Source: a virus
DNA length: 25,419 nucleotides
Strand: one strand, 5' to 3'
IMG/VR virus record: IMGVR_UViG_3300031658_000104
Coordinates: 1-25,419 of that record
Below the pieces are notes generated by a model, which ran no database searches, had not been told where the DNA came from, and saw nothing but the letters and a program-made list of their open reading frames with translations. Positions within the stretch are counted from its first letter, which is position 1; each line of letters starts with the position of its first letter. Shown one piece after another: positions 4,175 through 25,419 of the stretch. The position numbers and the translations under genes are program-made.

Positions 4175-4526
4175 ACTTAGTTACTGAAGGAGTAACTTGA
4201 ATTCGACCTTCAAGTACTCGTTCAATGATTGTAGCAGAAGTTGCACTATCAACATGAGATAGTTCTATATCATATACATGTCGTCCAGATTTTAATGCAT
4301 TAGTTTGTGCATTAGTAAGAGACAATGTAGCTATTCCGCCAGAAGCATTAGTAATCTGCGTAGCAAATGATGTAGTTTCTGAACTATCACTATTAAATGT
4401 TTTTTTAATTTTAGATGTTAGTGAATGACCTGACAGGTTTTTTGCTGCGCCGTTAGCATCTACTAAATGAAGTTCTATAGAGGTATTAGTACCTTGATCA
4501 AAGGTAAATTCTTGGTATTGGGCCAT
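4173..4526 (-). CDS. Small virion structural protein (117 aa) upstream of the giant fibre
   Basis: The protein starts MAQYQEFTFDQGTNTSIELH and ends RVLEGRIQVTPSVTK. It is a mostly beta protein, with a segment of the type G-IATLSLTNAQT-ALKSGRHVYDIEL. Proteins of this look occur next to tail fibre genes in marine T4-like phages, and I read it as a fibre-associated or adaptor-like virion protein; no catalytic motif is visible. An in-frame ATG at 4574 would add 16 residues, but the ATG at 4526 has a good GGAG site and begins at the recognisable N-terminus. It is the first gene of a two-gene unit with the giant fibre, driven by the late-type promoter at 4581-4588. Confidence 0.8.
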   Translation of the reverse strand: MAQYQEFTFDQGTNTSIELHLVDANGAAKNLSGHSLTSKIKKTFNSDSSETTSFATQITNASGGIATLSLTNAQTNALKSGRHVYDIELSHVDSATSATIIERVLEGRIQVTPSVTK

Positions 4527-4531
4527 GAAAT

Positions 4532-4537
4532 ACTCCA
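4532..4537 (-). promoter_or_regulatory. Ribosome binding site deciding the start at 4526
   Basis: TGGAGT on the minus strand has GGAG six bases before the ATG at 4526. No comparable site precedes the upstream in-frame ATG at 4574, so 4526 is preferred. Confidence 0.75.
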
Positions 4538-4580
4538 GTTGATTTCTTTGTCGGACGATTACCGCCCCTGCCATTTAAAC

Positions 4581-4588
4581 TATTTATA
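4581..4588 (-). promoter_or_regulatory. T4-late-type promoter box for the fibre genes (minus strand)
   Basis: The plus-strand sequence tatttata reads TATAAATA on the minus strand, an exact match to the T4 late promoter box used by the gp55/gp33/gp45-dependent polymerase. The predicted transcript start is near 4575, giving a leader of about 50 bases to the ATG at 4526. It sits in the only gap between the divergent gene groups. Confidence 0.75.
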
Positions 4589-4600
4589 CAAATTAACTTT

Positions 4601-4608
4601 TATAAATA
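4601..4608 (+). promoter_or_regulatory. T4-late-type promoter box for the plus-strand enzyme cassette
   Basis: This is an exact TATAAATA on the plus strand, 12 bases from the minus-strand box and directly upstream of the first plus-strand gene. By the T4 rule (box about -13 to -6) transcription would start at about 4614, which is the A of the first ATG. Confidence 0.7.
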
Positions 4609-4613
4609 CATTT

Positions 4614-4913
4614 ATGAATGATTTTATCTTAAAACCTCAATGCCATAAACGAGAAAAAACTATACTATCTAAAGGTGCTGCATATGTATCTACAGGGCAT
4701 CTACTTCCATGTTGCTGGTGCGATAGTTTAGATCCAAAAAAAATAGAAGAATTTAGAAAGCTTGGTTTTTTCTTTGAAGATTTAAAAGTTGAAAAAAATG
4801 ACACAATTGAAGATATACTTATGTCTGACGTTTGGATCAACTTTCATAGAACACTTATAGAGAAACCAGAAGAAGCACCTTCTACTTGCAAGAAAAACTG
4901 CTCGAATGAATAA
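4614..4913 (+). CDS. SPASM-like cysteine-rich protein, partner of the radical SAM gene
   Basis: This 99-residue protein has Cys10, then GHLLPCCWCD (Cys33, 34, 36), then the C-terminal CKKNC (Cys92, 96). The GxLxPCCW...C-x3-C layout resembles the SPASM/auxiliary iron-sulphur domain that normally follows a radical SAM core in the same chain. Here it is a separate gene placed before the core gene, which starts at 4906 and overlaps it by 8 bases. The chosen start is the first ATG after the TATAAATA box; a longer reading would run back through the divergent promoters and the opposite gene. No Shine-Dalgarno site precedes it, and the predicted transcript start falls on the ATG, so translation may be leaderless. 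It likely binds an auxiliary [4Fe-4S] cluster or substrate for the next gene product (inference). Confidence 0.7.
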   Translation: MNDFILKPQCHKREKTILSKGAAYVSTGHLLPCCWCDSLDPKKIEEFRKLGFFFEDLKVEKNDTIEDILMSDVWINFHRTLIEKPEEAPSTCKKNCSNE

Positions 4914-5616
4914 TTTTAATAAGTTATATAGTTCATATATAGAAGAACAAAAAAAAGCAGTTTTTAATATCGAAACTACATCTAGATGTAGGCTTCAGTG
5001 TCCGTTTTGTCAAAGGCAAAGAAAAGGAGGTAAAGAAAAAGTAAAACTAGCTGGCGAAATGTCGTATGAAGATATGAGAAAAATTTATAATTTTACTACA
5101 AGGATGAATTTTTGTGGACAAATTAGTGATCCGATTTATCATACAGATTTCTTAAAAATACTAGAAATAAAGAAAAACGAATATCCGAATAATATAATGA
5201 GCATAAGAACTAATGGTTCCGGAAAGAAGTTAAGTTGGTGGGAAGCCGCGTACAATCTTTGTGATAAAACAACTATATGGACATTTGGTTTAGATGGAGC
5301 AAGTCAAAAAACTGCAAATATATATCGAATAGGCACAAACTTTAATGAAATTTTTAAAGCCATGATTATTGGAACAAAAAATAAAATACCTATAGAATGG
5401 CAATTTATTTTATTTAAACATAATGAGCATGAACTTGAACTGGCTAAAAACCTTTGTAATGAAAACGGAATAACTTTAGTTGTTATTTATTCACAGAGAT
5501 GGCCAAAAGAAAAAAAACATCTTGGAATAAATAAGTCAATTACTCAAATTAAAGAAGAAATTAAAACACAACAAATACCAGTGCAAAAATATGGAAAAAT
5601 ATATTTTAACAAATAG
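4906..5616 (+). CDS. Radical SAM enzyme core (236 aa)
   Basis: The N-terminal motif is CRLQCPFC with Cys28, Cys32 and Cys35, the CX3CX2C site that holds the [4Fe-4S] cluster for S-adenosylmethionine cleavage. Other core features follow: FCGQISDP at about 69-76 in place of the GGE motif, SIRTNGSGKKLSWW, then WTFGLDGASQ...YRIGTNF. The protein stops soon after the partial barrel and has no C-terminal Cys domain of its own; the SPASM-like gene just upstream probably supplies it. The start overlaps the upstream stop by 8 bases, so the two are translated together. The substrate is unknown. The neighbours (two glycosyltransferases, a methyltransferase and an oxygenase-like protein) suggest modification of a peptide, sugar or other small molecule, but nothing in the sequence fixes this. 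Confidence 0.85.
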   Translation: MNNFNKLYSSYIEEQKKAVFNIETTSRCRLQCPFCQRQRKGGKEKVKLAGEMSYEDMRKIYNFTTRMNFCGQISDPIYHTDFLKILEIKKNEYPNNIMSIRTNGSGKKLSWWEAAYNLCDKTTIWTFGLDGASQKTANIYRIGTNFNEIFKAMIIGTKNKIPIEWQFILFKHNEHELELAKNLCNENGITLVVIYSQRWPKEKKHLGINKSITQIKEEIKTQQIPVQKYGKIYFNK

Positions 5617-5628
5617 AAGATTAACAAG

Positions 5629-6348
5629 ATGGAAATAATATGTTTAAAGTGGGGTGACAAATTTAGTCATGAACATGTAAATCGTTTATATAAAATGGTT
5701 AAAAAGAATTTTGATCATGAATTTAACTTTGTATGTTATACAGAAAACTCTACATTAATTAATAAAGAAATAGAAATACGTAGATTAAATTCAGAATACG
5801 ACTTAGAGAAATGGTGGTGGAAACTTACATTATTTGAGAAGCCAACTGATAAACCTACAATGTTTTTAGATTTAGATGTTGTAATTCAACATAATATAAC
5901 TCATTATATAAATTATTGTAAAGATAATAAGATATGCACGATTAAAGCCTATTGGAAGCCACATGCTCATAACTTAAAACCAGTCGCACCTGGGTATAAT
6001 ATGGATTTAAATTCTTCTGTTATAATTTGGAAAGGTGATTGTACACACGTGTGGAATGAATTCTATGACCAATGTGATTACTTAATGTGTAAATATCAAG
6101 GAATAGATTCGTATTTATATTTTCACCATAAAAATATACTTGAATTTTTTCCTAGGAATGAAATATATTCTAGGTTACATGGAATGGATGAAGAAAGAAT
6201 GTGGTGGCATGGGCCTAAAGTTCCTTTGTTTTATGATCCGTTATATAGCATTTGTATTTTTAACAAATGGAAGATGGATAAAAAATGGGGTGGCCCAGGA
6301 ATTGAAGATGACGCATATGATGGATTTGAAAAGTATTGGAATGATTAA
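5629..6348 (+). CDS. Glycosyltransferase-like protein, GT-A type with DxD (239 aa)
   Basis: The chain begins MEIICLKWGDKFSHEHVNRL. It has the pattern NFVCYTENS, then KWWWKLTLFE, then MFLDLDVVI with Asp81 and Asp83 as the DxD motif that binds metal and nucleotide sugar in GT-A enzymes. Later segments rich in Trp and His (MWWHGPKVP) fit GT8-like marine phage glycosyltransferases. The start is 12 bases after the radical SAM stop, with a weak AGAAGA site. The gene ends in TAATG, so its stop overlaps the methyltransferase start. The likely role is sugar transfer to a phage or host molecule; donor and acceptor are unknown. Confidence 0.75.
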   Translation: MEIICLKWGDKFSHEHVNRLYKMVKKNFDHEFNFVCYTENSTLINKEIEIRRLNSEYDLEKWWWKLTLFEKPTDKPTMFLDLDVVIQHNITHYINYCKDNKICTIKAYWKPHAHNLKPVAPGYNMDLNSSVIIWKGDCTHVWNEFYDQCDYLMCKYQGIDSYLYFHHKNILEFFPRNEIYSRLHGMDEERMWWHGPKVPLFYDPLYSICIFNKWKMDKKWGGPGIEDDAYDGFEKYWND

Positions 6349-6947
6349 TGGACAGTAGATATAGTGAATGCTTAGGCTGGTTTTATAGAAGATACCCAGA
6401 TAAAATAAAAGATTATATACAAAGTGTATCACCAAAACAAATTGCGTGTAAGCAATGGTTAGTAGATCAATTAATTGAAATACCACATGATTTTAAAAAC
6501 ATTCATCTATATGGTGGCTGGTTTGGTTATCCTTTAATAGACGTGTTAAATAAACAATATAGTATTGATATTTTAACAAATATAGATTGTGATAAGTTTG
6601 CAACTTCAGTTTGTTTTAACTTTAAAAATTATTTTAATCATCATTTTGTAAAAACTTCAACACAAGATTTAGTAACAACTGGCGGAATATACAAAGAAGT
6701 TGATTTAGTAATTAACACTTCTAGTGAACATATGCCTGACTTACCTGAACTTATTAATAATAAATCATATAATAAGTCTTGTGTTTTCGCTTTACAAAGT
6801 AACAACATGTTTCACTTAGATGAACATACTAATTGTGTAAACTCTCATGAAGAATTAGCTGAAAAAAGTGGACTTAATACTATATTATATTCTGGTAAAT
6901 TAGATTTAGATAATTATGAAAGATATATGGTTATAGGTTTATTCTGA
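6348..6947 (+). CDS. SAM-dependent methyltransferase-like protein (199 aa)
   Basis: A Rossmann-type start is visible. IHLYGGWFGYPLIDVL (52-67) takes the place of motif I, LTNIDCDKFA (76-85) supplies an acidic strand end, and DLVINTSSEHMPDLPE (119-134) is a motif-IV-like region found in methyltransferase-like proteins of marine T4-like phages. A LQSNN segment follows at about 149-153. The motif I glycines are atypical (GGWFG), so enzyme activity is likely but not certain. The gene is coupled to the glycosyltransferase by a TAATG overlap and is the last of the plus-strand cassette. Its 3' end overlaps that of the convergent oxygenase gene by 9 bases. Confidence 0.7.
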   Translation: MDSRYSECLGWFYRRYPDKIKDYIQSVSPKQIACKQWLVDQLIEIPHDFKNIHLYGGWFGYPLIDVLNKQYSIDILTNIDCDKFATSVCFNFKNYFNHHFVKTSTQDLVTTGGIYKEVDLVINTSSEHMPDLPELINNKSYNKSCVFALQSNNMFHLDEHTNCVNSHEELAEKSGLNTILYSGKLDLDNYERYMVIGLF

Positions 6948-12109: not shown

Positions 12110-15100
12110 TTATATGCCCTTTTTCATTGTTATAATTAAACCTATCAGCCTTAATGTTGGTCTTACTAATATTTTAGAAGAAATATCATAAGCATGTTGA
12201 GCTAAAGTAAGTTTAGTATTTAATTGTTTTGCTTTAAACAATTTAGTTAAAAACGTTCCTGATTTAGTATTACCTAATAACTTAGCAAGTTTAGGACCAA
12301 CTGCATCATATCCAATCATTCTATATGGATCAGTTCTTCGTAAATAAACACCCCATTTTTTAAGAACTCTATAATGATCCATTGAAATTAAGTTATTATC
12401 GAACACTGCTGCACAAATCCAAGAATTATCCGCAGTTGCGGATTCTTCATGTCCACCTACGCCAGAGTGCTGATTATTATTATTATTGTTTTGTCCATTT
12501 GTTGTTCCTACCCCAACTTCATTTCCTACACCTGGATTTCCATGATCTGTTGGAGATGGTCCGTGTTCGCCTCCATCATCTCCAACATATCTATAATATA
12601 CAGATGGTGGTACACTAAATCCTTGTACATTTAATTGTCTAGTTGATGTATACGTAGCTTCTTTAGTATCTAAATATCCAAGTGCAGCATAATTTGCGCG
12701 ACCAATACTACCAGCATTTTCTTCATTATCGACTGAGATATCTAAGAATTTTAATTGTTTAGTACCAACTCTAAATCTTAAAGCATCGTTATTAGGTATT
12801 ATCAAAGAACCTTCTACAGCGCCGTCATTATCAGTTGTTAAAGTATTTGTTCCATCCGGATGAGCTGTTAATCCGTTTAAGGTATTACCAAAATCTGTAG
12901 TAGTTGCTGAATAAAATTGGAATGTTTCTTCTCTAGCGAATGCTGCTATATTTACACCGTCTAGTACTGGAAATATTTGTGTGTTAGGGCGCATTGCTTG
13001 TACTTTAAAATGCACTTTACGCGATCTCATAAATGGTAAAAACGCAGTTTGTAAAACTCTATCTTCAACTAAATCTAATATTGTTTCTTCACTCACAACT
13101 CTATTAACCACACCGCTTTGTGTGTTAGTACTAGATCCTACTTGTAAATTTTCTACAGGTATTCCAGACCAACTCCATGACCAATTATTCCAGTTATTAG
13201 CGTTATTAGTTGCAAGGCGTGTTCCACCATGAATAATTTTATCTGGGAGACGTAATACGTCTCTCCACTCATCTGAAGCAGGAGATAGTGTAACTAGTCC
13301 TTCATAAATAATTACAGCAAAAGGATTAAGATGAACAAATTTTGTAGCTAGGTTTTGATTAATATATGGTTCTTCATCATATTCCATATAGACGTTATCG
13401 CCTTTACGTATAGTATTAGTTGATGCAGCAGAATCATACAATAATCTTATATTGTCTTCTAAGAATGCAGGTCTCATATGCTGTTCTACAGGATCAATGG
13501 CTGCTCTATACCCAGCAGTAATCCTTCGCGTATCAGTAAAAGTATGATCACCAAAATTATCAACAAAGAATCCTGATTTAGCTCTATCATTACCAGAAGA
13601 ATCTAGTGTTTGAAAATATTTAGTATCAACTTCTAATAAGCTTAAAGCTGTAACGTCTTCAAGGTTGCTTAATCTTTTTTCTAATCTTCCAATATCTTTC
13701 ATAGTAAAACGTCTATGCTCAATTTTTTGAACTGATACATCAGAATCATTATCAGTATTTGCACCCATTTTAATATCATACAGCCCTAAAGACTGTTCTG
13801 GTCTATTTGGAGTAGCTGGTGTAAAAGATGGCATGCCATGAACAAAATTTATAATACCTTCTCTATTAATTACAAGTTTGCCAGCTTGTCCTAAATAATA
13901 CTCATTATCACTCGTAATAAGTGTTCCAGGTTGAGGAAGTTCAATTACTCTAGCGCCGGAGCCTGAGGTAGCGAATGTAGATGACGCGTCCATGACTGAT
14001 CTAAAATCTAAGAAATTTCTTAAATTAATTCTATTGCCTGTAGATGTAGTAAATTCTGGTATTTTATCATAAGTAACTTGACCATTATATGAATTAACTG
14101 CGAAGAAGTCTCCAGAAACACCATGCTCAAAATAACGATACTTTATTTGACAACTATCAACTGCGGATAAACCAGGATTTAGACTTATTTTTCCTAAAGC
14201 ATAATGATTATCTCTTTGACCATTATCTAATTTAAATACTGTAGTTCGTGAAGTAGCGCTATCACCTGCCTTTATTACTTCAGTTATATCAAATATGTCA
14301 GCTTTACCTAAAGTTATAGATGTTCCTCCTGCTAAAACTTCAGTCTTGGTTGTTAAAGTTTTAGTTTTTATTGAAGGTTGACTTTTATTAACATAAGCTA
14401 ATATTTCAACGGCTGCGCTAGCTGGTAAAGAAGTTATAGACGAAGCGGTTGCTCCATTACCACCAATTGATGGATTAGTATATAACGCACTTGGATATAA
14501 TACACTACTATCGCTACCAATAATCCAATCACTTACATTAGTAAATGTTTCTCCAGTAGCTGATAAACTTATTGAAGCTGCGCCTGATCCATTTGCAGTT
14601 GCAGTAAATCTACGTTGTACAGCAAACGAAATATCTGTAATTGCTTTAGGTCTAGGTTTACCTACAGGAAATAAAGAAGTATTATTAAAAGGATCTTTTA
14701 AAACAGCTTTACCATTTTCTAATTCTGCATTAAAATATTCAGAAGTGCCTGTTCCTATACTTTTAACATTTCTAAAAGCTTTTCCACTATTCAATTGAAT
14801 ATCAAACATATGAAATTTAAGTTTATTTTCAAAATGATTTATAGCTTTAACTCTTGCAGTTCCAATAGTTGATCCAGCATAATTGTGGCCATCTCTAAGA
14901 TTCAATGCCGGAAAAGTGTTTATATTAGGTATTCCATCAATTGCACCTGCACTATCAGTATTAACTACAATAGCATTACCATAATCTATTGGTGTCACTT
15001 CATTTGTAATTTCAAGTGATGAACTTGGTTTTGTTATACGCAGAGTTGTAGGAAATGTAGTAGCTGCTCTATAGCCATCTACAATTGCAGTTCCTGGACT

Positions 15101-16084
15101 TACTGCTAAATTTAAATGAGTAGTAGCTGAATCTAATTCAAATTTTACTGTAAAAGGTTTTACAATGTAATCACCAGAATTTTCATTTATTCTTTTAGCT
15201 ATAACATCAGCTGGAATATTGTAAGAACTATTAGCGTCTATTGCACTAAATATTTGACCTTTTTTAATAGTTGCTACATGAATAAAGTTCTCATCAGAGT
15301 CAATATCAGCTTCTTCTGCTATTGTTAATTTAATTCTATATCTATCGGCGCCTGGCGCAGTTAAATTAGGTGCTGCTCCTTGATTATCAAATAATGAGTT
15401 ATCGTCAATTGCTGACACAACATCTTCAACTGATTTAAATCCTATATTAGTTGTTTTATTATCAGAATATTTTGAAATAACTTTCGACTGGTCTTCAGTG
15501 AATACAAAGTGTCCTCTAGCATAATATATGCCTGATGCTAATGTTGCAAGTATTCCTACACCAGTTGCTTGATTTGCAGCTGTATTAGTTGACTGTACTG
15601 TTAAGTTAATTGTTCCATTGTTTATTACTTCGCCTGGTGTTAATCTCACAGTTGTAGTTCCAGAAGAAGAAACAGTATTCATATATTGAATGTATAAAGT
15701 ATCTGGATCTGAACCAGTTGCACTAACAACTTGTAACACTTTAACTTGTATTGAAGATGTTTGACCAGTGAAAAGATTAGCAGAACTTGCTGCTGTAGTT
15801 ATAGAAGTAGTATCAGTTGGAAGAGTATTAGTTGTAGTGTCTAATTTAGCAAATTCATACTTAGGATTTATATTTGCTCCACCTGGTTTAACTACTGCAC
15901 CTTCTTTAAATATATTATTACCAAATCTTTGTATTTGATTTTGAAGTATTGATTGTAATTGCGTCAATTCACGAGCTTGTAATGCTTTACCTGAATTAAA
16001 TAAGATTTTATGAAATCCTGCGCTATCGGCAAAATCATCTTTATATGTAGTTTTAAAGACGGTTTCTGTAAGTGTAGTAGCCAT
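12110..16084 (-). CDS. Large DUF4815-type baseplate protein (1324 aa)
   Basis: The N-terminus (KTTYKDDFADSAGFHKILFN, then LQARELTQLQSILQNQIQRF) is that of DUF4815-type phage structural proteins. This type is found in marine T4-like phages just downstream of gp8, the place of T4 gp9/gp10. Beta domains fill the middle. Residues about 840-1150 include DVLRLPDKIIHGGTR, FLPFMRSRKVHFKVQAMRPN and RVGTKQLKFLDI. A Gly/Asn-rich linker with six Asn in a row (about 1165-1218) leads to a C-terminal domain (WICAAVFDNNLISMDHYRVL... ) of the type often closing such proteins. It starts 11 bases after gp8 with an AAGGA site. It is likely a wedge or peripheral pin protein that holds fibres. Confidence 0.8.
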   Translation of the reverse strand: MATTLTETVFKTTYKDDFADSAGFHKILFNSGKALQARELTQLQSILQNQIQRFGNNIFKEGAVVKPGGANINPKYEFAKLDTTTNTLPTDTTSITTAASSANLFTGQTSSIQVKVLQVVSATGSDPDTLYIQYMNTVSSSGTTTVRLTPGEVINNGTINLTVQSTNTAANQATGVGILATLASGIYYARGHFVFTEDQSKVISKYSDNKTTNIGFKSVEDVVSAIDDNSLFDNQGAAPNLTAPGADRYRIKLTIAEEADIDSDENFIHVATIKKGQIFSAIDANSSYNIPADVIAKRINENSGDYIVKPFTVKFELDSATTHLNLAVSPGTAIVDGYRAATTFPTTLRITKPSSSLEITNEVTPIDYGNAIVVNTDSAGAIDGIPNINTFPALNLRDGHNYAGSTIGTARVKAINHFENKLKFHMFDIQLNSGKAFRNVKSIGTGTSEYFNAELENGKAVLKDPFNNTSLFPVGKPRPKAITDISFAVQRRFTATANGSGAASISLSATGETFTNVSDWIIGSDSSVLYPSALYTNPSIGGNGATASSITSLPASAAVEILAYVNKSQPSIKTKTLTTKTEVLAGGTSITLGKADIFDITEVIKAGDSATSRTTVFKLDNGQRDNHYALGKISLNPGLSAVDSCQIKYRYFEHGVSGDFFAVNSYNGQVTYDKIPEFTTSTGNRINLRNFLDFRSVMDASSTFATSGSGARVIELPQPGTLITSDNEYYLGQAGKLVINREGIINFVHGMPSFTPATPNRPEQSLGLYDIKMGANTDNDSDVSVQKIEHRRFTMKDIGRLEKRLSNLEDVTALSLLEVDTKYFQTLDSSGNDRAKSGFFVDNFGDHTFTDTRRITAGYRAAIDPVEQHMRPAFLEDNIRLLYDSAASTNTIRKGDNVYMEYDEEPYINQNLATKFVHLNPFAVIIYEGLVTLSPASDEWRDVLRLPDKIIHGGTRLATNNANNWNNWSWSWSGIPVENLQVGSSTNTQSGVVNRVVSEETILDLVEDRVLQTAFLPFMRSRKVHFKVQAMRPNTQIFPVLDGVNIAAFAREETFQFYSATTTDFGNTLNGLTAHPDGTNTLTTDNDGAVEGSLIIPNNDALRFRVGTKQLKFLDISVDNEENAGSIGRANYAALGYLDTKEATYTSTRQLNVQGFSVPPSVYYRYVGDDGGEHGPSPTDHGNPGVGNEVGVGTTNGQNNNNNNQHSGVGGHEESATADNSWICAAVFDNNLISMDHYRVLKKWGVYLRRTDPYRMIGYDAVGPKLAKLLGNTKSGTFLTKLFKAKQLNTKLTLAQHAYDISSKILVRPTLRLIGLIITMKKGI
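12473..12487. repeat. ATT trinucleotide repeat (poly-Asn linker)
   Basis: Five ATT units code part of the six-Asn run in the 1324-aa protein linker. Changes by whole units would alter the linker length without a frameshift. Confidence 0.8.
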
Positions 16085-19485: not shown

Positions 19486-21315
19486 TTATATACTTACCGC
19501 TGTGGTTTGATAATCTAAAACTGCTGCTGAAGATGAGGTTGCAACATCTATTTCTATAATATAGTTTCTTAAAGGTCTTATAGTATTTTGATTTGCAGGA
19601 GTTACAGATAATGATATTGCAGCTCCTTCAAATGCTGTAGGTTTAAATCCAGTTAAAGTAACTGCGCCTGATGCATTATTATAAGAACCAATATTATCAA
19701 TTTCTACTGTTCCATCTTCTGCTATTATTTGTAATTTAGTAGTTCCTGGTTTATTTTTTATTACACATGCCTGAGAATTAAAAGTAAATCGTGTAGAACT
19801 AAATGTTGAAATTAAAGCATTTGGTTCAGCTAATGCAACTGGAAAAACTATAGTATACGCAAGAGATAAATTAACTGTTGGTACAAAACTTTGTTTTATA
19901 AAGATAGCCATCTTAGAGTTTAATATTGATGGATCAATTGCATCGATGGTAGTAAGAAGATTAGATCTTCTAAATACTTTATTAAATTTTCCTAAGTTAG
20001 TAGTAAAATAATTATTAACTGTGTTTTGTACATTGGTTTCTAAAGATTGTGAAGTTGAACCAGTTAGATCCGGATCTAAATTAAAGGTTGTACTTACTGA
20101 TAAAAACGTAGTTATAGGTTCAACATATTCTGTTGTTATTGACATTATAGCCATATTATCAGTAAGTTCAGTTTGAATTGTATCTTTTACAGATTGTTGA
20201 GTATCAGCAGTTACTGCATTTTTAAATTTTAATCCAATAAAAGTTTTTCCATAAATTGCTGGAATACTATCTGCACCACTGTATGCAGTAACATCATCTA
20301 AATATGCTCCATAATTAGCTAAAATCTGACCTTTATAATCTTCTGCTGTCACTAATCTTCGTTGTGATGTAAAAGCAATAGGCGCATTTTGTCTTATAGA
20401 TTCTACGCTTTCTTTATATGATCCGCCAGCTGCAGCTGCTTCTGTTGTAGTAAGTAACGTGTAACTAGTTCCAGATATTGTAATATTTGCGGAAGGAGTA
20501 AAAGTAGCAGCTCCATTTGCAACTGTTCCTTTAGTTGATAGATAATCTATTATAATCTTATTACCTGCTACTGGTGCTTTACCTGTAGTTAAACCATCAC
20601 CAAAAATTATCTCATAATATCCATTAGGAACTTCTTTAATTTGATAGTGTGTACTACTATTAGTAATTCGAATTGCTTTGCTTATATTAGTGTAAGTGTC
20701 AAACAATGAAGAACCTGAAGTAGGAAAAACTCTTACGCGAATTGTAGTAGTATCAATAGTAATGTCTGGTATAACATATATTTGGGAGTCTGTAGTATCA
20801 CCAACAAAGAATGTTTTAGTTTTTTCAATTCCTTCAAAGACTGAAATATTTGTTCCATCTGTAGAATTTAAAAATGAATATAATCCAACACCATCATCTA
20901 TTGCAGTAAAACTTTCTCTAGTTTGAAATACATATGATACATCATTAACACTACTAGTAAATGAAGTGTTTCTAGGAATAGTTATACTAGTTGGTCTGGT
21001 GCCTGAACTAATAAGAACAGATAAATTTAAATCTGCCTTTGACGAAGAATATGATTTAGGGACATAACCTAAACCTTCAGCCAAAGATGCGACTGAACTT
21101 CTTAGTTGAGCAGTGTTAATAAAAGATTCGTTTAATGCAAAATTAGCAGTAAGACCATTAAAATGTGTATTATATGCTAAGACATCTAGTATATTACTTA
21201 AGCCTGAAGCTTCAAAATCATAATCTGCAAATTCAGTTTGCTGTTTAAAATAATCTTTAAGTCTGCCTTTGACTGTATCAAAGTCAAGTTGCGTCGATTT
21301 TATTGTTGTTGCCAT
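19486..21315 (-). CDS. gp6: Baseplate wedge subunit gp6 (baseplate J-like, 609 aa)
   Basis: The start (STQLDFDTVKGRLKDYFKQQ, then FADYDFEASGLSNILDVLAY, NTHFNGLTANFALNESFINT) is the clear signature of T4-like gp6, followed by LRSSVASLAEGLGYVPKSYS. The middle has the J-like repeats (YYEIIFGDGLTTGKAP, SIRQNAPIAFTSQRRLVTAE, DYKGQILANYGAYLDDV), and the C-terminal part is a beta domain. In T4, gp6 forms the inner ring of the baseplate wedge with gp7 and gp53. Length is near T4 gp6 (660). It sits directly between gp25 and the 323-aa gene with no gaps, a usual T4-like order. Confidence 0.93.
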   Translation of the reverse strand: MATTIKSTQLDFDTVKGRLKDYFKQQTEFADYDFEASGLSNILDVLAYNTHFNGLTANFALNESFINTAQLRSSVASLAEGLGYVPKSYSSSKADLNLSVLISSGTRPTSITIPRNTSFTSSVNDVSYVFQTRESFTAIDDGVGLYSFLNSTDGTNISVFEGIEKTKTFFVGDTTDSQIYVIPDITIDTTTIRVRVFPTSGSSLFDTYTNISKAIRITNSSTHYQIKEVPNGYYEIIFGDGLTTGKAPVAGNKIIIDYLSTKGTVANGAATFTPSANITISGTSYTLLTTTEAAAAGGSYKESVESIRQNAPIAFTSQRRLVTAEDYKGQILANYGAYLDDVTAYSGADSIPAIYGKTFIGLKFKNAVTADTQQSVKDTIQTELTDNMAIMSITTEYVEPITTFLSVSTTFNLDPDLTGSTSQSLETNVQNTVNNYFTTNLGKFNKVFRRSNLLTTIDAIDPSILNSKMAIFIKQSFVPTVNLSLAYTIVFPVALAEPNALISTFSSTRFTFNSQACVIKNKPGTTKLQIIAEDGTVEIDNIGSYNNASGAVTLTGFKPTAFEGAAISLSVTPANQNTIRPLRNYIIEIDVATSSSAAVLDYQTTAVSI

Positions 21316-21762
21316 TTATCTTAACCTCGTTATATTCACGTCTGTCGTAAGTGTTTCAGATGTACTAATTACTTGAAATGTTACAGTAACTTTTATTTCA
21401 TGCGAATCATCTTTTAAATTCGATGTTATGTTTAAAACTCTAGCTCTTGGCTCGAATATTTCAATTGATTGCATAATTTGTTCTCTTAAATCGTCATCGT
21501 CTATATCTGTATTAAGAGCAAATAAAAAAGAGTTTAGATTTCCACCAAATTTTGGTTGAAAAGGTTTTTCACTAAAATTAGTCAATAACAAGTTTTTAAT
21601 AGCTTGTTTAACTGCAGCCGCATTTTCTTTTTTATAAATGTCCCCAGACGTTTTTTTCGCAAAAGTTAGATCTATATCTTTAGAAGATACAACTTTGTTA
21701 GAAAGAATTGTAGCACTTCCTATATTTCCGTCTTCTACTGAAAAAGCTCTGATTGGCATCAT
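21316..21762 (-). CDS. gp25: Baseplate wedge subunit gp25 (148 aa)
   Basis: It carries the GPW/gp25 signature: AVKQAIKNLLLTNFSEKPFQ, PKFGGNLNSFLFAL, then LREQIMQSIEIFEPRARVLN with the EPR motif. The C-terminal strand pair (IKVTVTFQVISTSETLT) completes the fold. In T4, gp25 binds gp6 and gp53 and helps start sheath assembly; earlier claims of lysozyme activity for it are not supported. Two ATGs lie in tandem at 21762 and 21759; the AAGGA site fits either. The gene is first after the late-type promoter at 21777-21784, and its stop abuts the gp6 ATG. Confidence 0.93.
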   Translation of the reverse strand: MMPIRAFSVEDGNIGSATILSNKVVSSKDIDLTFAKKTSGDIYKKENAAAVKQAIKNLLLTNFSEKPFQPKFGGNLNSFLFALNTDIDDDDLREQIMQSIEIFEPRARVLNITSNLKDDSHEIKVTVTFQVISTSETLTTDVNITRLR

Positions 21763-21788: not shown

Positions 21789-22421
21789 TTATGCGGCCGA
21801 TGTTGTTCTTAATACTTCTAATAATTCATTAGTAGCTTGATTTCTATTATTATATCTTGTTTCAACTTCATTTTTATATGTTATATTCCATGGTGGAATA
21901 ATTTCAGGCATTATTAATATTATTTGTGCGTTCAATGTTAAATCCGGATTATAGTTATCGTAATCTAATATTAGTTTATCAAATTGCAAATTGTCTTTCC
22001 AATATACAGCAAGATCAAATGTTTTTTCTACAGCGGTTTTACCTTTTAAATTTATTAACTCATACACAACAGCAAAACCTCTAGACATCATATAATTAAC
22101 GCCGTCACTAACATCTAAGTCTTCGCCTGGTTCTGGTCTATATAATCCTTCTACTACTTGTAATCTAAAATCTTTAAATTCTTTAGTAGCACTTGTAGAA
22201 TTTATTGTTTTCATTGCTTGTGCATGAAGAGTATATTGTTTAGCTAATAGTAATCTATCGTTATCTTCTAAGATGTGTGTTAATGTAACTGGATCACCAT
22301 AACCACCTAGGAATTTTGCCATAGATATTCCAGGAGCAAGTTTTGTTTTACTAGTTATTTCATCTTGAAATACTGGATTATATTTAGCATCTACAAAAAA
22401 ATCTGTGTTTATTACTTCCAT
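21789..22421 (-). CDS. Baseplate-region protein, possible degenerate M15-peptidase fold (210 aa)
   Basis: This protein is conserved in style with proteins between gp5 and gp25 of marine T4-like phages. Residues 86-120 (RLQVVEGLYRPEPGEDLDVS, then YMMSRGFAVVYE) and 134-153 (TFDLAVYWKDNLQFDKLILD) resemble the SGYR...H..G.A.D...FD.LI.E pattern of zinc peptidase M15 (DD-peptidase) domains. The zinc His, Asp and second His positions are not visible: Tyr or Asn and Tyr stand there. If the match holds, it is an inactive, structural version. It is not T4 gp53 by sequence (no gp53-type LYG...W segment), although its location could suggest that name. The TAGGA site before the ATG is good. Confidence 0.6.
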   Translation of the reverse strand: MEVINTDFFVDAKYNPVFQDEITSKTKLAPGISMAKFLGGYGDPVTLTHILEDNDRLLLAKQYTLHAQAMKTINSTSATKEFKDFRLQVVEGLYRPEPGEDLDVSDGVNYMMSRGFAVVYELINLKGKTAVEKTFDLAVYWKDNLQFDKLILDYDNYNPDLTLNAQIILIMPEIIPPWNITYKNEVETRYNNRNQATNELLEVLRTTSAA

Positions 22422-22430
22422 ATTATATTC

Positions 22431-23825
22431 CTATATAAACAATTGTGTTGGATTAGTTGCTCTTCCTAATGGCTCAATGCCTCTTCTAGGTACTTTTTTA
22501 CCACCAACAATTCTTCCTGTTGATAGAGGAGTTACACGTGTAATATTAGGAGACACTGTACCATCTGCAATTAATGCTGAAATAAATTTTTCATTATTAA
22601 TATTATTAGGATCTCTTAATTTAGATCTAGCTTGGCGTGTATTAAGATCAACTTTTGAAACTCCGCCATAATGAACAGTTCTATCTAATCGATTATACAA
22701 TTCACTGAATTCATCGATGTGAACTCTCTTAATAGCTACACCTGATTTTTCTAATGCATCATTTAACACTTCTGTAGTTGGTGTTACAGTTACTTTATTA
22801 GTACCTGCTACGTTACTTAATGTATGTGTTCCTGCGGCGCCACTAGCACCAAGCGATCCTGCTGTTCCTGCTTTTCCAGCTTGTGTTGCTGTTTTAGCAT
22901 TACCTTCTAAAGTGCCATGAAAAGTTGTAGCATGCATTGTTGTAGCATGGACTGAAGTAGAATTTACTCGAGGTATATGAGCAGCAAAACCATAATAAAC
23001 CATATCTTCACCACCTATAGTTCCACTATCTCCTAATACTGCAAGTGAAGAAGCTATAATATTTGCACTTTTAGTTGAAAGAGTTACTTCTTTTTCAGCA
23101 GTCATTATGAGTGTACCACCAGCAGCATAGTTATGATCTACTTGTATATTTTCAGCAAATGAACCTTTAATAATATTATTTTTATCACCATGTATTAATG
23201 ATGTATAACTGCCTCCAACTGTTTCTGATTTATCACCTATGATTTGCACTTCATGACTTCCAGCGATATCTTGTATTAATCCTCTAGTAATGTTTTGTTC
23301 CATATCGCCTTTAACATTAACATTAAAATCTCCACCAACTTCTAAGTCAAAATCACCTGCAACTTTTAGTTTTAAATTTCCATTATATTGTAGTTCACCG
23401 TCTCCATCAACTACAACCTTTTCGTCGTTAGCAGTTACTCTTAAAGTATTTTTAGTTGATGCATATATCACTGTGCCATCTGCTCGCATCTCTACACCAG
23501 ATCCAGATGTGTGTCTAATCATTACTCGTTCAGATCCAGGAGTGTCATCGTATTCTACTATATGGCCTGATGCTGTTTCCTTAACTTGTGAATTAGGATA
23601 TTGTGAAGTACTTTCATCACTTAATTCCAAATCAATATCTTTTACACTTCCGCCAAGCTCGACATTTACACGTTTAAATCCTCTTGCAATTTCATTAACT
23701 GATGATTGTTCTTGATATTCTACACGTGGATACGCTCCTCCAGGATCTTCAAATCCATCTTTTTTATCTTTTAATGAAGCAGCTTTTCCAGCTGGTATTG
23801 TGAAATTTTCAGATTCCATAGACAT
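22431..23825 (-). CDS. gp5: gp5-like baseplate central spike protein without visible lysozyme domain (464 aa)
   Basis: The N-terminal part (about 1-80) leads into SGHIVEYDDTPGSERVMIRH and TSGSGVEMRADGTVIY (about 85-120). Then come short repeats of the type VAGDFDLEVGGDFNVNVKGD, IIGDKSETVGGSYTSLIHGD and NIIKGSFAENI, the triple-stranded beta-helix pattern of T4 gp5 and VgrG spikes. T4 gp5 carries an OB fold and a T4-lysozyme domain before its helix; neither is recognisable here. A HATTMHATTFHGTLEGN segment and a basic C-terminal tail (about 350-464) follow. It should form the cell-puncturing needle of the tail hub. AAGGA precedes the ATG, and the pseudo-amidase gene ends 3 bases upstream. Confidence 0.75.
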   Translation of the reverse strand: MSMESENFTIPAGKAASLKDKKDGFEDPGGAYPRVEYQEQSSVNEIARGFKRVNVELGGSVKDIDLELSDESTSQYPNSQVKETASGHIVEYDDTPGSERVMIRHTSGSGVEMRADGTVIYASTKNTLRVTANDEKVVVDGDGELQYNGNLKLKVAGDFDLEVGGDFNVNVKGDMEQNITRGLIQDIAGSHEVQIIGDKSETVGGSYTSLIHGDKNNIIKGSFAENIQVDHNYAAGGTLIMTAEKEVTLSTKSANIIASSLAVLGDSGTIGGEDMVYYGFAAHIPRVNSTSVHATTMHATTFHGTLEGNAKTATQAGKAGTAGSLGASGAAGTHTLSNVAGTNKVTVTPTTEVLNDALEKSGVAIKRVHIDEFSELYNRLDRTVHYGGVSKVDLNTRQARSKLRDPNNINNEKFISALIADGTVSPNITRVTPLSTGRIVGGKKVPRRGIEPLGRATNPTQLFI

Positions 23826-23828
23826 ATA

Positions 23829-25419
23829 TTATTTCCTTCCAAATATACTAGCTAAGTTTTTAATATCTAATTTTTTAGATATCGTATCTACAAATGATTT
23901 ATTCTTATCAACACCAGGAATAAGTTTTTTCACAATGCTATCGCCTTGTTGCTTAGCTAAAGAATTTTTAGGATCATTTACAGCTTTAGCTATTCCACTG
24001 TTTATATCTAATTTTCCACTTAAAACATCATTCATCGCAGTTTTTACTGCCGCAGCATCTTTAGCATGATCTGCTGGTAATTCATTTCCAGTTTCTGGAT
24101 CTATATTTTCAAATTTATCTTGTAATTTTGAAAATGAAAATTTGTTTTTAGCATTAAATATTGTTGTATTACCTTTTGCAACTTCCTTTGGTTTTATATA
24201 TGCTATTTCTTTTCTAGTTGGCCCATTGCCGGCATCTTCAGGATTTTCAATAGTGTTTGTTTTTCCATACTTGTCACGGATAGCACTCATATCAAAACCT
24301 GGACCAGATTTAGTATCATCCAAATCGTTATCGCCGAATACGTTAACTCCTGGTAAAGTTTGATATATTTTAGATATTAATTTATTTAATGATGCCATTT
24401 GTACAGGACTAGCTGGTTGTTCGTTATTTGCAACTAATGTAACTTGTACGCCTGTAAGATCAAATGCTGATGTATCTGGATTTCGCACTTCGTCTATAGG
24501 CCTTCCTTTTTGTATTCGCCCATCTGTTAATATTACAAAATGAGATTGAATTCCATATAATTTTGGGTTTTTCTTTATTTCATTTATAGCTTTTTGTAAA
24601 TCTCCTTTAGATTTTATAAGCAATTGTTCATCACTAGCTTTACTTACAGCGTGAATAGTTTGTGCATTGACTTTTTCTGGAGGGCCAGTCATTTTATCAG
24701 ACCAACCAACAATAATAGCAACTACTGCATTATTATTACTTTTAAATCTACTACTATTTTCTAACTCATCTTCTAATTGCTCTACTGATTGAATTATCTC
24801 AAATTTATAAGTGTTAGGTGTACTATATCCAGTCCAATCGGATTTAGAACCTGACGAATTCGCTACATTTGCAGGAGACATATTCGGAGTCAGTTTTCCT
24901 TTTTGTATAAGTTTACTAACATTAGTATTAAAACTTTGTTTTCCTGTTAATGGATCAAATCCTTCAATTAAGTTAGGAACTTCAACTCCTGCAGGAGGAA
25001 TAACTCCATCTGGTAAACCTGGCAATTTATTTTTAATATTTCCTAATCCAAGTTTGTCTAACCCACCTCCTGTAATACCTTTAACTTTTGCGGTAAGATT
25101 AGCAAGTATATTAGTTCCTGATCTACCAGCGCCGCCTAAGATTCCAGTAGGATCCAATCCTATTCCAGCTTGTCTAACTTCTTTCATTTGTGCTTTAGTT
25201 TCTGTTTTCACATCTTTTGATACTTTACTTTCTAAAGTTATATTATTGTTTTTATCAGTAATTGCTGCAGTCGCTTGTTCAATTACTTTAACTGACACTG
25301 ATGCTGGTAAGACAGCTCTAGCATTTGTTTCAATAGTTGTAGATGGTGCAGTGGTGTGTGTTTTCATAGCGTCTATAATAGAATTTACACTACCTTGAGT
25401 AAATACAGTTTTATTTAAA
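23829..25419 (-). CDS. Tail-hub-region protein with degenerate amidase/PGRP-like domain (5' end beyond window)
   Basis: Numbering is from the ATG at 25367, but the frame stays open to the window edge (17 more residues, no stop) and that ATG has no ribosome site, so the true start is probably outside. Residues about 188-368 follow the N-acetylmuramoyl-L-alanine amidase type 2 (T7 lysozyme/PGRP) pattern: AVVAIIVGWSD, YGIQSHFVILTDGRIQKGRP, VQVTLVANN, VNVFGDNDLDD, KSGPGFDM. The expected zinc ligands read Gly221 (for His in VHW), Asp346 (for His in GHND) and Gly355 (for Asp or Cys in DPGFD), so the enzyme is probably inactive. The N-terminal 180 residues and the last 140 are helical or low-complexity. 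It sits upstream of the spike gene and may be a hub or spike partner that binds peptidoglycan (inference). Confidence 0.7.
   Translation of the reverse strand, partial: LNKTVFTQGSVNSIIDAMKTHTTAPSTTIETNARAVLPASVSVKVIEQATAAITDKNNNITLESKVSKDVKTETKAQMKEVRQAGIGLDPTGILGGAGRSGTNILANLTAKVKGITGGGLDKLGLGNIKNKLPGLPDGVIPPAGVEVPNLIEGFDPLTGKQSFNTNVSKLIQKGKLTPNMSPANVANSSGSKSDWTGYSTPNTYKFEIIQSVEQLEDELENSSRFKSNNNAVVAIIVGWSDKMTGPPEKVNAQTIHAVSKASDEQLLIKSKGDLQKAINEIKKNPKLYGIQSHFVILTDGRIQKGRPIDEVRNPDTSAFDLTGVQVTLVANNEQPASPVQMASLNKLISKIYQTLPGVNVFGDNDLDDTKSGPGFDMSAIRDKYGKTNTIENPEDAGNGPTRKEIAYIKPKEVAKGNTTIFNAKNKFSFSKLQDKFENIDPETGNELPADHAKDAAAVKTAMNDVLSGKLDINSGIAKAVNDPKNSLAKQQGDSIVKKLIPGVDKNKSFVDTISKKLDIKNLASIFGRK
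24264..24806 (-). other. Amidase_2/PGRP-like domain with lost zinc ligands
   Basis: This domain covers residues about 188-368 of the protein. HFVILTDGRIQKGRP aligns by eye with the HYVI-RDG-IQ-GRP core of type 2 amidases, and GPGFDM with DPGFDV. All three metal positions are non-ligand or weak-ligand residues, which suggests a binding or scaffolding role. Confidence 0.6.

Follow-up and report, generated by a model that had tools for sequence, protein, structure and literature searches.

A gp5-type tail spike encoded in two pieces, with an intact-looking lysozyme and two predicted pseudoenzymes, in a T4-like virus fragment

Results

Hub genes at the end of the window

T4 gp5 is the textbook example of a tail spike that carries its own wall cutter. 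Here we describe how the counterpart of this machine is encoded in a 25.4-kb fragment of a marine virus from IMG/VR (record IMGVR_UViG_3300031658_000104, positions 1 to 25,419; the whole stretch is hereafter the window), which carries T4-type baseplate genes on its minus strand, recognisable in profile searches as gp8, gp10-like, wedge, gp6, and gp25. Three hub genes lie upstream of gp25 in the direction of transcription, all on the minus strand: an amidase-like gene whose 5′ part is cut by the window end (23829..25419, 529 codons; phrog_822, 2e-10), a spike gene (22431..23825, 464 amino acids), and a gene for a protein of 210 amino acids (21789..22421). A preliminary description had located these genes correctly and had read the spike as lacking a lysozyme, with neighbors that are inactive relatives of an amidase and possibly of an M15 peptidase; these readings are borne out below, with the addition that the amidase-like open reading frame (ORF) runs past the window end and that a hydrolase gene lies beyond it.

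A lysozyme gene beyond the window edge

The region upstream could be read from contig L001, which overlaps the window over 7,263 bp at 99.97% identity (two mismatches) and continues further. Its gene order is tail tube cap, gp53, a tail protein in the gp27 position, a 309-amino-acid OB-lysozyme protein, the amidase-like protein, the spike, the 210-amino-acid protein, gp25, and gp6. The complete amidase-like protein has 735 amino acids (L001:3498-5705), and the OB-lysozyme gene (L001:2569-3498) is one gene upstream of it, such that the window stops about 2 kb before the missing enzyme. The OB-lysozyme protein matches Phage_lysozyme2 with 86.8 bits (cut-off 28.2; E 2e-24) and Gp5_OB with 32.7 bits (cut-off 25), and aligns to T4 gp5 across the OB domain and to phi29 gp13 across the lysozyme domain. 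Glu45 of phi29 gp13 is conserved in the latter alignment (to 3csr); this is the suggested catalytic residue of gp13, and its equivalent proved essential in a GH184 muramidase (PMC10394673). Judged by its sequence, the lysozyme domain looks intact. Within the window, family profile searches found no hydrolase with an intact active site among the genes tested, and a search of the window's own record for the Amidase_2 family gave no match.

The domain attached to the OB domain varies among relatives. At three loci (L261:6298-7170, L351:4154-4984, and L352), the C-terminal domain encoded by the OB gene is not Phage_lysozyme2 but another, unrecognised one, which suggests that different enzymes can be joined to the OB domain of gp5; the replacing domain in L261 appears lysozyme-like by eye. 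The OB gene of Methylophilales phage Melnitz has a VanY-like domain at the lysozyme position. Several related contigs have an OB-lysozyme gene broken into two ORFs inside the lysozyme domain (e.g., L106:7992-8836 and L107:4023-4863), and all of these keep an intact amidase.

A gp5 split into two genes

A single gp5 profile (phrog_430, "baseplate hub subunit and tail lysozyme") is matched in succession by the OB-lysozyme gene (positions 15-178) and by the window spike (positions 328-539 of 868 only; 1.2e-32); therefore, gp5 is encoded here as two genes with the amidase-like gene between them. The spike is the C-terminal (gp5C) part. Its phrog_430 match covers residues 70-288 and its Gp5_trimer_C match (26.9 bits, 5.7e-06) residues 166-238, which together delimit an approximate triple-stranded beta-helix region (22956..23618, minus strand); by analogy with T4 gp5, this helix would be trimeric. 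Spike residues 12-70 correspond to a tail of Gp5_OB (profile positions 69-119) that remains below threshold (19.5 bits vs. a cut-off of 25). Apart from this fragment, profile searches detected neither a lysozyme nor any other hydrolase family in the window spike, nor a complete OB domain and lysozyme in the same chain. "Hub without hydrolase" calls that are made from genome fragments can thus overlook a split gp5.

An amidase fold without zinc ligands

Full-length residues of about 400-603 of the amidase-like protein (24228..24839, minus strand) form a domain whose predicted structure, obtained with good confidence, superposes on amidases and peptidoglycan recognition proteins (PGRPs), including LysC (Z 13.9, 136 residues aligned, root-mean-square deviation 2.4) and T7 lysozyme (Z 12.4). 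The window protein did not reach the Amidase_2 profile cut-off (17 bits vs. 26), the full-length protein gave no Amidase_2 match at E 0.01, and a tblastn search against named phages returned a single weak match in a Helicobacter phage record. We located the ligand columns using a profile of apparently intact relatives aligned to T7 lysozyme (3e-24; H17, H122, and C130). None of the three zinc ligands (His, His, and Cys or Asp) is kept in the window protein, in which G444 stands for H17 (24705-24707), D569 for H122 (24330-24332), and G578 for C130 (24303-24305, all on the minus strand). Intact relatives read HHC or HHD at these columns, while decayed relatives read GDG, GEG, DRA, DKA, HFG, HYA, SIN, DVA, YHP, and others. 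On this evidence the amidase-like domain of the window is predicted to be catalytically dead.

Two further observations concern this protein family. One locus (L315:5482-6702) has lost a single ligand (S-H-D) although the rest of its clade is intact, and this inactivation may be very recent. The N-terminal 400 residues (L001:3498-4700) were modeled with moderate confidence and had no match among the structure-comparison rows; this region probably holds the hub-binding part of the protein.

A predicted M15-fold protein without a zinc motif

Sequence searches with Pfam, PHROG, and PDB profiles assigned the 210-amino-acid protein to no family, and a tblastn search against named phages found nothing of note. 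A model built from 42 homologs (predicted local distance difference test score 87, predicted template modeling score 0.83) had as its best structural match the Zn DD-peptidase of Streptomyces albus (1lbu; Z 9.2 over 124 residues). Hedgehog domains came next (Z about 6), and after these M15/LAS enzymes such as LysECD7, ChiX, LysB4, and Ply500. Among viral models, the best matches included gp5-OB proteins and proteins annotated as peptidase M15A. A zinc motif of the SxHxxGxAxD or H-x6-D type was present in 0 of 177 unique homologs, where the place of the His is taken by M, A, R, K, L, or Q and that of the Asp by V or A. Many relatives have the domain joined to the C-terminus of the spike (e.g., L032, 675 amino acids). 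Taken together, the protein is a predicted M15/LAS-fold pseudo-peptidase, both here and in every known relative.

A search of four large module-bearing records for Peptidase_M15_3 gave no match. One spike fusion (L104:4006-7065) carries a second, C-terminal M15_4-like domain (Peptidase_M15_4, 3.5e-4) whose zinc motif seems to have been lost as well.

Repeated enzyme decay across the clade

We scored 274 modules out of 440 loci and clustered their spikes at 93% identity, which yielded 110 clusters. Both enzymes were intact in 48 of these. The amidase was dead and the lysozyme Glu present in a further 46; the amidase was intact and the lysozyme Glu lost (to F, Q, K, V, or T) or the gene split in 13; and an intact amidase accompanied a lysozyme domain replaced by an unrecognised one in three. 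Both enzymes were dead in none of the 110 clusters, and every amidase-dead locus among the 274 modules retains the lysozyme Glu. Assuming that lost activity is never regained, the spike tree implies that the amidase was lost at least seven times and that the lysozyme was lost at least five times and replaced at least twice, without overlap among these events. This pattern is suggestive of a hub in which lysozyme and amidase are never lost together. We do not present reciprocal loss as a statistical law: the Fisher test on clusters gave p 0.0004, but this value is inflated because the clusters are related, and its table also counted a truncated locus and a domain-replaced one. With relatedness taken into account, the probability of seeing no overlap ranges from 0.04 to 0.2 among the tests used.

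A more solid result comes from the amidase-dead clades. These have a combined branch length of about 12 substitutions per site on the spike tree, and the lysozyme Glu was never lost along it. Its retention in all 46 amidase-dead clusters is hard to explain otherwise than by a need for the activity, and speaks for lysozyme activity being required in the lineage of the window. The repeated decay is an experiment of nature that bears on the number of enzymes needed by a contractile tail, and on the role of dead enzyme folds there.

The slot after the spike

The M15-like gene follows the spike, in the slot where relatives have a PAAR tip gene: in Cr30, HTVC008M, Mosig, and Melnitz, such a gene comes either behind gp5 or the spike or directly ahead of gp25. 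None of the 337 loci that contain the M15-like gene had a PAAR profile match, whereas 22 of 92 other gp5 loci did, and six module-bearing records of 69-178 kb had none either. Replacement of the PAAR tip is something we infer from these counts, because the loci are related to each other and many are short. The M15-fold protein probably sits at or near the spike tip.

A broader proposal can be made only tentatively, and we would sooner doubt it than rely on it: that across a large and mostly marine clade of T4-like viruses a pseudo-peptidase of hedgehog/M15 fold, often fused to the spike, has taken over from the PAAR tip, and that an "at least one live enzyme" rule governs the hub, whereby either the lysozyme or the amidase may decay to scaffold, but never both.

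Discussion

A probable puncturing hub spread over several genes

The explanation that we consider likely is that these genes encode a T4-type puncturing hub in which gp5 comes in two gene pieces with another gene inserted, the OB-lysozyme cuts the wall, and the amidase-like and M15-like proteins are dead. It draws on gene order, folds, the loss of catalytic residues, the conservation of the lysozyme Glu, and the spike fusions. The first piece supplies the gp5 OB domain together with a phi29-gp13-type lysozyme, and the second the beta-helix spike. If events proceed as in T4, contraction would drive the trimeric spike across the outer membrane, after which the beta-helix would be shed and the lysozyme, tethered by the OB domain, would cut the glycan strands of the wall. 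The amidase-like protein is derived from an active zinc amidase, probably once a second wall cutter of the hub; it is retained despite its inactivation, most likely as a structural, peptidoglycan-binding, or regulatory component.

Several points weigh against this interpretation. The OB-lysozyme gene is outside the window itself and was taken from an overlapping contig and conserved synteny, and the Gp5_trimer_C score of the spike falls short of the Pfam cut-off (30.9). The M15 assignment comes from predicted structure without sequence profile support, and a comparison of the model with the PDB by Foldseek alone was weak (best E 0.21). Enzymatic activity of the hub proteins, the place of the amidase-like and M15-like proteins in the virion, and the order of infection events were each deduced.

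Other explanations should be considered. The degenerate amidase and M15 domains could restrain the lysozyme until deployment, in the manner of PrgK of pCF10, in which a degenerate LytM domain and an inactive CHAP domain keep the muramidase in check (PMC11323569). That working precedent, the inhibition of gp5 lysozyme by the T4 beta-helix itself (PMC3004832), and the persistence of these proteins long after their catalytic residues were lost all fit such a role; a purely structural or wall-binding function accounts for the retention equally well, however, and we regard restraint as an unlikely explanation, albeit the strongest of the alternatives. One may also postulate that the amidase-like protein is still enzymatic by way of other residues or another metal site, given that the fold persists and that the family alignment shows one invariant active-site-like His (in a YH/SH motif). 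However, none of the three canonical ligands is left, and the residues found in their stead differ by clade (GDG, GEG, DRA, DKA, HFG, HYA, SIN, and DVA), which is the mark of repeated decay and not of one new site, making residual catalysis improbable.

The preliminary description had further suggested that the hub may penetrate the wall without cutting it, which could suit hosts with thin peptidoglycan, or else that an active hydrolase is located elsewhere. The first suggestion accords with the lack of an intact-site hydrolase among the window genes tested, but is made very improbable by two results: on the near-identical contig, the next gene upstream of the amidase-like one encodes an intact-looking lysozyme fused to an OB domain, and the catalytic Glu is retained in 46/46 amidase-dead clusters. 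We rejected penetration without cutting on account of the OB-lysozyme gene; the conservation of the Glu leaves both this idea and that of thin-walled hosts unsupported, while the seemingly intact Phage_lysozyme2 and OB gene on L001 favors the alternative of a hydrolase elsewhere. The least probable explanation is that the 210-amino-acid protein is gp53 or another wedge protein, which we rejected: T4 gene 53 adjoins gene 5 and the protein is not recognised by any sequence profile, but it has no gp53 profile match, L001 encodes gp53 as a distinct gene (L001:484-1215, PF11246 above cut-off), and the predicted fold fits M15/hedgehog domains and M15A-annotated phage proteins, with the domain fused to the spike in many relatives.

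Comparison with known systems

The likely arrangement of a two-piece gp5 with a live lysozyme shares much with T4, including the family profile, the combination of OB domain, hydrolase, and beta-helix spike, and neighbors of the gp53, gp27, gp25, and gp6 types. In T4, proteolysis at Ser351/Ala352 divides gp5, whose lysozyme has 10% activity as long as gp5C remains attached (PMC3004832); the genetic split seen here resembles this proteolytic maturation into gp5* (OB and lysozyme) and gp5C (beta-helix). Unlike in T4, there are two genes with an amidase-like gene between them, Phage_lysozyme2 takes the place of the T4 lysozyme, and an M15-like protein follows the spike, with no PAAR tip found. 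The T4 gp5 machine is here spread over genes, with second and third hydrolase folds built in.

A split gp5 has been published for the T4-like rhizobial phages Atu_ph04, phiM9, and P10VF (PMC6630229). Rhizobium phage RHph_I1_18 likewise has its OB-lysozyme and spike annotated as separate, near-neighboring genes, although, going by the annotation of this phage alone, it has no amidase-like gene or M15-like domain between or after the gp5 pieces. In Caulobacter phage Cr30, gp5 includes an OB domain and a Phage_lysozyme2-like region with 29% identity over 91% of the OB-lysozyme protein, but is a single protein of 701 amino acids followed by a PAAR tip gene. The N-terminal domain of phi29 gp13 (PF18013) shares the lysozyme domain and the catalytic Glu45 column, but belongs to a tail-knob protein without a gp5 OB fusion. 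T7 lysozyme, Amidase_2 proteins, and PGRPs have a fold in common with the amidase-like domain, whose zinc ligands have all been lost. The S. albus Zn DD-peptidase and the hedgehog N-domain share the predicted M15/LAS fold of the 210-amino-acid protein; in contrast to both, no relative of the latter has zinc ligands, and the family accompanies a phage spike in the genome, often as a fusion with it.

Envelope-crossing machines with several hydrolase folds, only some of them shown to be active, have also been described in hub gp15 of the Anabaena myophage A-1(L), where three hydrolase folds were named and activity shown for two (PMC10966104), and in PrgK (PMC11323569). The proteins and architectures of these systems differ from the hub described here. 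A split gp5 and inactive hydrolase domains have each been known before; the novelty lies in the four-gene hub module of OB-lysozyme, amidase-like protein, spike, and M15-like protein. We did not find this module, its repeated enzyme decay, or an M15-fold protein in the PAAR slot described in the open-access literature that we searched.

Neighboring genes in the window

Downstream of the hub genes, gp25 (21316..21762, minus strand; PF04965, 7e-13) and gp6 (19486..21315, minus strand; phrog_219, 5e-128) encode baseplate wedge proteins. The window gp6 has 42% identity to gp6 of Phage C48C1, and about 33% to those of Pelagibacter phage HTVC008M and phage Melnitz. Inside the baseplate and tail region, a small plus-strand island (4467-6947) encodes a radical SAM protein (4906-5616) together with one that resembles glycosyltransferases (5629-6348). 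After gp8, the minus strand encodes a protein of 1324 amino acids (12110-16084; phrog_358, 1.7e-238, a family with no assigned function) that sits where pelagiphages have their large VrlC-annotated protein.

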